Shown here: positions 14,973-42,450 of the stretch, piece by piece
Position numbering within the stretch: the stretch's first letter is position 1
Layout of the letters: every line of letters begins with the position of its first letter
Source: Stenotrophomonas maltophilia
GTDB taxonomy: Bacteria; Pseudomonadota; Gammaproteobacteria; Xanthomonadales; Xanthomonadaceae
Length of the DNA: 64,000 nt
Reading direction: 5' to 3'
Assembly (NCBI GenBank): GCA_900113425.1
Contig: FOZF01000001.1
Coordinates: 1,218,358-1,282,357 of the forward strand
The notes under the pieces: generated by a model
The model's database searches: none
What the model saw: the letters and a program-made list of their open reading frames with translations, nothing else
What the model was told of the DNA's origin: nothing
Position numbers and translations under genes: made by a program

Positions 14973-15072
14973 GGCGGGGTGGGTCCGGTTGCGGGGACGC
15001 CGTAAACCCATCCCTGGGGGCTCAGCCGCGCCATCCATGGCGCGGATGCCCGGCAACCGGACCCACCCCGCC
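14973..15072 (+). repeat. Structured ~100-bp palindromic repeat, copy 1
   Basis: Perfect 20-bp arms (14973-14992 and 15053-15072, GGCGGGGTGGGTCCGGTTGC and its complement) enclose a core. The core holds GACGCCGTAAACCCATCCCT, a GGGGGCT box and an inner hairpin GCGCCATCCATGGCGC. The core recurs at 42021-42124 and, inverted, at 42293-42394. Confidence 0.85.
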
Positions 15073-15134: not shown

Positions 15135-15174
15135 GGGGTCAGAGCCCTTTCCTGCGGAAAGGGGATCCGACCCC
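15135..15174. repeat. GGGGTC-type hairpin at the 3' end of kup
   Basis: GGGGTCAGAGCCCTTTCC and GGAAAGGGGATCCGACCCC form a long imperfect stem around a TGC loop, five bases past the kup stop codon. It is related to the hairpins at 59519-59559 and, more loosely, 32305-32347. Confidence 0.75.
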
Positions 15175-15179
15175 GCGCG

Positions 15180-17099
15180 TCAGATCTCGACCTGTGCGCC
15201 CAACTCAACCAAGCGGTTGCCCGGAATCCGGAAGAAGCCCGTGGCCGGCGCAGCGTTGCGATGCATCAGCGCGAACAGCTTGTCGCGCCAGATCGGCATG
15301 CCGCGGTTGGCGGTGGCGACGATGGTCTCGCGGCTGGCGAAGAAGGTGGTGTCCATCGGATCGAAATAGATCCCGCCGTGGTCGCAGGAGCGCATCAGCG
15401 CCAACGGTACATCCGGCGTTTCCATGAAGCCGAAGCGGACATAGACCCGGTAGAACTCGTCGCCCACCGATTCGATCTTCAGCCGCTGCCCCTCCATCGC
15501 ATAGGGAATGGGCAGGGTTTTCACATGCAGGAAGACATTGCGCTCGTGCAGCACCTTGTTGTGCTTGAGGTTGTGCATCAGTGCATGCGGAGCCACGGTC
15601 GGGTCAGCGGTGAGGAACACCGCGGTACCCGGCACGCGCACCGGCGGCGCCAGCATCAGGCCCGGCAGGAAGGTGTCGATGCGGATACCGTCCTTGCGGA
15701 TCTCGTCGCGCAGCAGCTCGCGGCCACGGCGCCAGGTGCGCATCATGGTGAACAGGAAGATGCCCAGCACGACCGGGAACCAGGCGCCCTGCAGCAGCTT
15801 GGCACCATTGGCGATGACGAAGCCGACGTCGATGATGAAGAACACCACGCACAGCGGCAGGATCCAATGACGCGCCTTCGGCCACAGCGAGCGCGCGACC
15901 AGGGCCAGCAGCAGCGTATCGATCAGCATGGTGGCCGAGACCGAGATGCCATAGGCCACGGCCAGGTTCGACGAGCTGCGGAAGGCCAGCACCAGGCCGA
16001 TGACCATCACCGCGATGCCCCAGTTGATGCCCGGGATGTAGATCTGGCCGATGGTGTCGTGCGAAGTGTGCTTGATGCGCATGCGCGGGATGTAGCCGAG
16101 CTGCATGGCCTGGCGCGAGACCGAGAACGCGCCGGTGATCACCGACTGCGAGGCGATCACCGCCGCCATCGTGGCCAGGATGATCATCGGATACAGGGCC
16201 CAGTCGGGGACCGCTTCGAAGAAGGGATTCTTCACCGCTTCGGGGTGGTTCAGCACCAGCGCACCCTGCCCCAGGTAGTTCAGCACCAGGCACGGCAGCA
16301 CGAAGAAGTACCAGGCATGGCGGATGGGCTTGGCACCGAAGTGGCCCATGTCGGCATACAGGGCCTCGCCACCGGTTACAGCCAGCACCACGGCGCCGAG
16401 GATGAAGATGCCGTGCCAGCTGTGCTCCATGAAGAAGCGGATCGCCCACCACGGGTTGAATGCCTTCAGCACTTCCGGCGAATCGATGATGTTGTAGATG
16501 CCGATCGCCGCCAGCGAAATGAACCACACCGAGGTGATCGGGCCGAACGCCTTGCCGATCTTCTCTGTGCCGAAACGCTGCGCGGCGAACACCATCAGCA
16601 GGACCACCACGGTGATCGGCACGATGAACGCATGCAGGCCCGGTGCGGCCACCTCCAGGCCCTCGACGGCGCCAAGCACCGAGATCGCCGGGGTGATCAC
16701 GCCATCGCCGAAGAACAGCGACGCACCGAAGATGCCCAGGATGCCCACCACGTAGGCCGAGCGTGAGCCGTTGCGCAGCGTACGCTGGGTCAGCGCCATC
16801 AACGCCATGATGCCGCCCTCGCCATCGTTGTCGGCGCGCATGATGATGGTCACGTACTTCAGGGTGACCACGATGTTCAGCGCCCAGAACGCCAGCGACA
16901 GCACGCCGAGCACGGTGTCGTGGTCGCTGTTGAGCCCGTAGTGCGGCGAGAACGCCTCCTTCAGGGTGTACAGCGGGCTGGTACCGATGTCACCGAAGAC
17001 CACACCGATCGCGCCGATGACCAGCGCCAGTCCCCCGGCCGGGGGGGCGTGACCGTGTCCGCCAGGGGCGGCTGCGTGCGGGGTTTGACTGCTGGACAT
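15180..17099 (-). CDS. kup: Low-affinity potassium uptake protein Kup
   Basis: Kup is a proton-coupled K+ importer of the KUP/HAK/KT family. The 639-residue product starts at MSSSQTPHA, with an AGGAG site just upstream. A His/Gly/Pro-rich N-terminus precedes 12 predicted membrane helices. Conserved marks are [22 protein letters not shown] in helix 1, [13 protein letters not shown], and [19 protein letters not shown] cytoplasmic C-terminal domain of about 160 residues follows, with AVFLTADP...[18 protein letters not shown]. It sits between ruvA and ruvB, 49 bases after ruvA, a xanthomonad arrangement with no known functional reason. Confidence 0.97.
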
Positions 17100-42020: not shown

Positions 42021-42124
42021 GGCCGGTCGGGTAGATGCCGCGGGGGACGCCGTAAACCCATCCCTGGGGGCTTGGCCGCGGCATCCATGCCGCGGACACC
42101 CCCGCGCCACCTACCCGCCCGGCC
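42021..42124 (+). repeat. Structured ~100-bp palindromic repeat, copy 2
   Basis: The core GACGCCGTAAACCCATCCCT plus GGGGGCT and an inner hairpin (CCGCGGCATCCATGCCGCGG) matches copy 1. The arms are different in sequence but still complementary: GGCCGG-T-CGGGTAG...CGCGGGGG against CCCCCGCG...CTACCCG-C-CCGGCC. Confidence 0.82.
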
Positions 42125-42189
42125 CCTCACAGTTTCCTGCGTGTGGCAGCCACGGAAGAGAATCAGAAGATCAAAGGCAGGCTCTCCCT

Positions 42190-42215
42190 GTAGAGCCGAG
42201 CCCATGCTCGGCTAC
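42190..42215. repeat. SMAG-like palindrome with double GTAG ends
   Basis: GTAGAGCCGAGC-CCAT-GCTCGGCTAC is self-complementary to the ends, so GTAG reads out on both strands. It is a diverged subfamily of the GTAG repeats. Confidence 0.75.
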
Positions 42216-42292
42216 AGACGATCATTCCGGTCATTCTTCAGTTCATCCACGCAAGGTCGCCCCCCCAACAACAGCAGCGGAAGACTGTCGAA

Positions 42293-42394
42293 GGCGGGGT
42301 GGGTCCGGTTGCGGGGGCGTGAGCGCCATGGATGGCGCGACCGAGCCTCCAGGGACGGATTCACGGCGTCCCCCGCAACCGGACCCACCCCGCC
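42293..42394 (-). repeat. Structured ~100-bp palindromic repeat, copy 3 (inverted core)
   Basis: The arms equal those of copy 1 (GGCGGGGTGGGTCCGGTTGC and complement). The core is in the opposite orientation: it reads GACGCCGTGAATCCGTCCCT on the reverse strand. A CTGTCGAAGG flank is shared with the matching side of copy 1. Confidence 0.82.

Positions 42395-42414: not shown

Positions 42415-42450
<36 letters not shown>

Follow-up and report, generated by a model that had tools for sequence, protein, structure and literature searches.

The three repeats of about 100 bp in a 64,000-nucleotide stretch of the Stenotrophomonas maltophilia genome (the window) are three-way junctions in which an outer stem (P1) carries two hairpins (P2 and P3), and the strand that folds, which will be referred to as R, is the one opposite to the strand on which the core was given in a preliminary description of this DNA. 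They are miniature mobile-type elements built on a conserved folded core, which they have in common with the Yersinia repeat YPAL/RU-2 and with several unrelated MITE-like repeats of Methylotuvimicrobium. On sequence comparison, the window repeats form a new branch of this YPAL-cored superfamily. Structure, kinship to YPAL and the assignment of the folded strand, taken together as one claim, are in our view nearly certain.

The preliminary description had placed all three repeats correctly (Table 1). Its further observations were confirmed, namely that copies 1 and 3 have common arms in opposite orientation, and that copy 2 has other arms with pairing kept and an inner hairpin with compensating changes. 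The core reported as shared is exact as a 20-mer in copies 1 and 2; copy 3 has three mismatches in it (GACGCCGTGAATCCGTCCCT), two of the changes of this copy compensating each other within P2, and in place of the GGGGGCT box it has GGAGGCT. The chance expectation of such core matches is 0.02. Scanning the window with a covariance model derived from 35 diverse sequences yielded exactly three copies (84-88 bits, E ~1e-16), the next match having E = 0.5. Copy 1 (site 1) is flanked by a kup-like gene, which has its stop at 15180, and by ruvB; these are minus-strand genes, so that the R strand of the copy is sense to both neighbours. Copies 2 and 3 form a pair with differing arms and R strands pointing apart, which is located between a poxB-like and an NCS2-permease-like gene (all gene names were read from translations). 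By consensus search, neither a sigma-70-like promoter nor a terminator was detected in the spacer of the pair, and a promoter in the spacer was dismissed on this basis.

Table 1: Positions of the three repeats and their parts in the window, and core-carrying repeat families of M. buryatense.
Feature	Position	Strand	Remarks
Copy 1, whole element	14973-15072	minus (R)	Model match 14987-15058 minus, 85.2 bits
Copy 1, P1 arms	14973-14996 and 15049-15072		Class A arm
Copy 1, 20-mer core	14996-15015	plus (core)
Copy 1, P2	14999-15021
Copy 1, P3	15023-15048
Copy 2, whole element	42021-42124	minus (R)	Model match 42037-42108 minus, 87.8 bits
Copy 2, P1 arms	42021-42046 and 42099-42124		Class B arm
Copy 2, 20-mer core	42046-42065	plus (core)
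Copy 2, P2	42049-42071
Copy 2, P3	42073-42098
Spacer of copies 2 and 3	42125-42292	no strand	Contains GTAG-tagged palindrome 42190-42215
Copy 3, whole element	42293-42394	plus (R)	Model match 42308-42379 plus, 83.9 bits
Copy 3, P1 arms	42293-42317 and 42370-42394		Class A arm
Copy 3, P3	42318-42343
Copy 3, P2	42345-42367
Copy 3, 20-mer core	42351-42370	minus (core)
M. buryatense carrier F1			TATACC/GGTATA inverted repeats
M. buryatense carrier F2			Begins GGAATATGCACAAAATAA
M. buryatense carrier F3			Begins AACGTTCATGAAGG

The GTAG-tagged palindrome within the spacer (GTAGAGCCGAGCCCATGCTCGGCTAC) resembles the known REP family of Stenotrophomonas. Adjoining copy 1, a further palindrome was found at 15135-15174 (GGGGTCAGAGCCCTTTCC-TGCGG-AAAGGGGATCCGACCCC), and units like it also occur next to other copies as well as at empty sites of sister species. 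Many copies are accompanied on their outer side by hexamer repeats of CAACGT, CAACAG or GCTCTG units (e.g., 42418-42450; loci L001-L028), beyond which a GCAGGGC...GCCCTGC hairpin is located. At positions 1520-1612 the window matches the C4 antisense RNA (RF01695; 61.6 bits, cut-off 45), an RNA of the phage immunity type, which suggests that the window retains parts of a prophage at its left end.

Read in core orientation, P1 is usually 24-31 bp long, free in sequence, and ends at the G of GAC. P2 has the form GCC-(GTRAA bulge)-YCC-RTCCNT-GGR-GGC and is followed by one T, and P3 the form YR-G-8 bp-TCCA-8 bp-A-YR. On the R strand, P2 has an ANGGA loop and a 5-nt bulge conserved as UUYAC or, less often, as CUUGC, and the P3 loop is A(N)GGA. 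Covariation of both stems around the core, as proposed from the three window copies, is strong in two alignments. In 27 copies from the source genome, 96.9% of cells are paired, so the arm differences preserve pairing, and both sides have changed in 24 of 43 pairs with a covariation score of 0.370, compared to 0.110 for shuffled and 0.03-0.05 for slid alignments. In the diverse set of 35 sequences, which consists for the most part of single representatives of the arm clusters and is supplemented with Yersinia, plasmid and one additional Stenotrophomonas core type, both sides have changed in 21 of 26 pairs and the score is 0.625 versus 0.164 after shuffling. In both sets, covariation was above every shuffle and all slid controls. 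The P2a segment is invariant in the own-genome set and varies elsewhere with pairing kept (GCC/GGC, GCT/AGC, GGC/GCC). For intact copies of the source genome, fold energies of -74 to -96 kcal/mol are predicted.

The folded strand could be identified from the mismatches in the arms. In core orientation, 264 mismatches of the types A·C and C·A were counted in 236 unique copies compared to 46 of the types G·T and T·G; since A·C on one strand is G·U on the other, pairing is kept on the reverse strand, R. With relatedness removed by clustering the arms, the A·C excess was observed in 27 of 28 informative clusters and the opposite in one (p ~2e-7), and one representative per arm cluster gave a ratio of 51:6. 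In 33 of the 35 clusters, moreover, the more stable fold is that of the R strand. Such an asymmetry is not expected of a neutral or purely mutational palindrome; it rules out the latter and fits RNA and single-stranded DNA alike. Together with the covariation, it supports the selected single-strand structure that the preliminary description had suggested.

The source genome (4.14 Mb) contains about 61 copies as detected with the covariance model at 56 bits or more, matches below this value being the opposite strands of copies already counted. At 16 of the 24 sites read in the genus the copies are paired. The R strands point apart in every pair, the arms of the partners are clearly different in 15 of the 16, and the flanking genes are co-oriented in 13 of them according to a rough gene call. 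At site 1, sister species have kept the class A arm with core types swapped inside it, and in species devoid of the element the whole composite is absent. Absences of this kind, and no clean empty sites, were found in the genus. At the orthologous site, an arm change is uncompensated in one sister species (L254) and compensated in another (L257).

Beyond the genus, the core pattern was found in 17 of 369 genomes of the gammaproteobacterial class, representing 14 genera, with no match for a reversed control pattern. Named carriers include Ectothiorhodospira, Thioalkalivibrio, Sedimenticola, Neiella, Idiomarina, Pantoea and Yersinia similis, and the highest copy number, 344, was obtained for a genome read as Methylotuvimicrobium buryatense 5G. 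None of the non-gammaproteobacterial genomes in a sample of the phylum matched. A viral origin was discarded, as just three matches occurred among 2.9 million viral contigs. Conjugative enterobacterial plasmids carry relatives as well, flanked by TIR-like ends and a duplicated terminator-like hairpin. On the E. coli plasmid p027_SK3a (L378, 1501-1664), a core copy is enclosed by TIR-like ends, and the 19-bp terminator-like hairpin that occurs on either side of it looks like a long target duplication.

The preliminary description knew of no named family with this layout; this has to be revised, as the core is common to the Yersinia repeat YPAL/RU-2 and to Rfam RF02770 (Ysr224). In Yersinia the core forms the middle of a repeat of ~168 bp identified as YPAL/RU-2, and its reverse complement, ...gagcctacatggatgtatttacggcgtc..., is part of the RU-2 sequence as published (PMC2759123). 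With a model of the P2/P3 core (R2), the Y. similis YPAL reached 65.1 bits and the window copies 84-88 bits, so that both carry the core. Some YPAL copies of Y. similis (L362, L367 and L373) have a larger P2, with ~15 nt inserted at a common position, and represent a subfamily with an altered P2 loop. The core string itself was not found in a literature search, and in the searchable open-access literature we found no description of a cross-class superfamily, of the folded strand or of the CsrA-type loops.

At least three MITE-like repeats of M. buryatense, the ends of which are unrelated (Table 1), carry the core, and F1 units of 72 and 77 bp exist that do not contain it. Both findings indicate that the core is a module rather than a transposon. 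Constraint on the core is seen across families and genera; within F1, substitutions in P2 are just modestly fewer than elsewhere, which does not demonstrate constraint after insertion. For 42 intergenic Methylotuvimicrobium copies, no bias in gene orientation was observed (R sense versus not, 19 versus 19), and a role as terminator or 3'-UTR element was rejected for this reason and as no terminator-like site is present at the window pair. Nor was there a replication-strand bias, with 34 plus versus 35 minus copies over 800 kb of one skew sign. Inserted within core copies of Methylotuvimicrobium, and sometimes in tandem, is another unit of two hairpins with GGA loops, GCGCCAAGGATGGCG...TTTTGCAGGAGCAAAA (L272-L311; e.g., at 133233 and 323237 of 800 kb). 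It looked like a CsrB-like array, but was not counted as support, as its GGA loops are on the strand opposite to that of the core.

The loops of the R strand point to a possible partner. Among 186 unique cores, 172 have A(N)GGA in the P3 loop, on which the scan used to collect them had placed no constraint. The P2 loop is ANGGA(U/C), where only the variability of N, which is truly variable, and the base that follows are informative, as the search pattern fixed its TCC. The distance between the two GGA motifs is 23-24 nt in 195 of 200 cases. CsrA is encoded in all 11 element-bearing genomes tested; to our knowledge it is nearly universal in gammaproteobacteria, and its presence in the carriers is thus weak support. 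The SELEX consensus of CsrA is RUACARGGAUGU with GGA within a hairpin loop, and the dimer bridges two sites separated by 10-63 nt, optimally by more than 18 (PMC7652899). Judged by motif and spacing, and assuming transcription, the R-strand loops match the CsrA/RsmA motif at a distance fit for a dimer. The short P2 stem of ~4 bp is like those of the SELEX ligands, whereas the P3 stems are longer than is typical for them. Docking of RsmA/CsrA at the GGA loops is therefore proposed as putative, with a probability that we place somewhat below even.

Following this proposal, transcription through the element in R direction would allow it to act as RNA, and one RsmA/CsrA dimer would bind the two GGA hairpins. 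Within the transcript of which it is part, the element might then serve RsmA/CsrA as a docking site or decoy, and it would act in trans if a stable fragment were released. The P1 stem would isolate and present both loops, a role that might explain why P1 is free in sequence and kept in pairing. The core would have been retained, possibly because of this binding, while different miniature transposons carried it. This complete explanation, a folded mobile core whose RNA acts as an RsmA/CsrA docking site, is the best we can offer, and we advance it tentatively. Several findings count against this explanation: the 19 versus 19 gene orientation, the annotation of Ysr224, the sole annotated transcript, on the other strand, the length of the P3 stems, the modest conservation of P2 within F1, and the invariant GUC and conserved bulge, for which CsrA has no need and which hint at a different or additional partner.

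The main rival holds that the fold acts as single-stranded DNA, a substrate of a transposase or another ssDNA enzyme with core and bulge as recognition hairpin, which would be kept for spread and not for the host. Dispersal at up to ~344 copies per genome, the presence on conjugative plasmids, the conserved bulge and GAC and the missing gene-orientation bias all agree with it, and the strand asymmetry would equally be expected of a single-stranded DNA intermediate. Nevertheless, the core is at the centre of MITE-like repeats with differing ends (TATACC inverted repeats, GGAATATGCAC, AACGTTCATGAAGG, YPAL ends), which points to different transposases, and the balance of strands across 800 kb argues against it as well. 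We also know of no dedicated enzyme for such a substrate, and we consider this reading unlikely.

Alternatively, the repeat might form an RNA hairpin and thereby affect how stable the host mRNA is or how it is processed, with RNase III or another dsRNA-binding protein acting on the long stem and the GGA loops being incidental. This is the published view for YPAL and ERIC (PMC2229807), and the very stable fold is consistent with it, as is the intergenic location of 13 of the 16 genus pairs between co-oriented genes. However, stability alone leaves the conserved core, the identical loop motifs in two unrelated stems and their fixed cross-genus spacing unexplained, which makes this alternative quite unlikely. 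Lastly, template switching and gene conversion between copies might keep a neutral palindrome perfect that has no selected function. This reading has in its favour the few arm classes in the genus and the swapped core types, which demonstrate that recombination between copies happens, but these mechanisms treat both strands alike and can give neither 27:1 strand-asymmetric clusters nor conserved loops and bulge across genera, so that it is refuted as sole cause and highly improbable altogether.

The common core unites repeats known separately or not at all from Yersinia, Stenotrophomonas, methanotrophs and other gammaproteobacteria as one fold with unrelated ends. If the loops dock CsrA/RsmA, genomes with tens to hundreds of copies would conceal a large sink for this global regulator, and docking would explain why unrelated miniature transposons have a common cap. 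The more far-reaching version, a portable twin-hairpin CsrA/RsmA module that several unrelated miniature transposons captured and distributed across the Gammaproteobacteria, so that a genome-wide decoy or docking network was formed, appears somewhat doubtful to us.

Compared with known systems, the repeats resemble REPs, BIMEs and GTAG- and CGTC-tagged palindromes in being dispersed, intergenic and often arranged as inverted pairs. REPs are single hairpins of 20-40 bp with a terminal GTAG or CGTC tag (PMC3733652), whereas the window element is a three-way junction of ~100 bp with no such tag at one end. The proposed recognition unit for a REP-associated transposase (RAYT) is therefore not supported, nor does a REP/RAYT origin fit the Methylotuvimicrobium cores, which sit in MITE-like repeats with terminal inverted repeats. 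As the source genome also carries GTAG palindromes, the presence of a RAYT would not be diagnostic. ERIC (127 bp) is likewise an intergenic, imperfect palindrome of enterobacteria; kinship based on a short common string (GTGAATCC...GGAG) was rejected, as two E. coli ERIC copies showed neither a match to the core model nor a TCC/GGA loop pair. CsrB/RsmZ-type RNAs also have several hairpins with A(N)GGA in the loops at suitable spacing; here, two hairpins with putative sites are present per copy, in dispersed repeats rather than in one regulated gene. The models of CsrB, CsrC and RsmX/Y/Z had no match in the whole window at gathering thresholds or around the 42 kb pair at E<=10.

RF02770 (Yersinia sRNA 224) is closer, its 3' half being the YPAL left arm plus core, and scores 127-130 bits in Y. 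similis. It gave 29.6 and 24.7 bits on the 42 kb pair, below the gathering score of 70, and no match to copy 1 at that threshold; this model represents the other strand with a truncated right arm and a structure that differs from the three-way junction. YPAL/RU-2, the Yersinia palindromic sequence of ~167-168 bp (Delihas 2007, PMC2759123; PMC2229807), is characterized by target duplications of 3-26 bp beside its dyad symmetry. At site 1, the element-free species lack the entire composite and thus offer no clean empty site. The window copies do not form the ~168-bp unit, as arms and flanks are different and the YPAL ends (GAGGTTATTGACAAA.../...TTTGTCAGCAGTCTGA) and arms are absent, and they occur as divergent pairs inside mosaic repeats. 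Common to both are the same core, the P2/P3 three-way junction capping a long arm stem, and an intergenic, dispersed and mobile-type occurrence.
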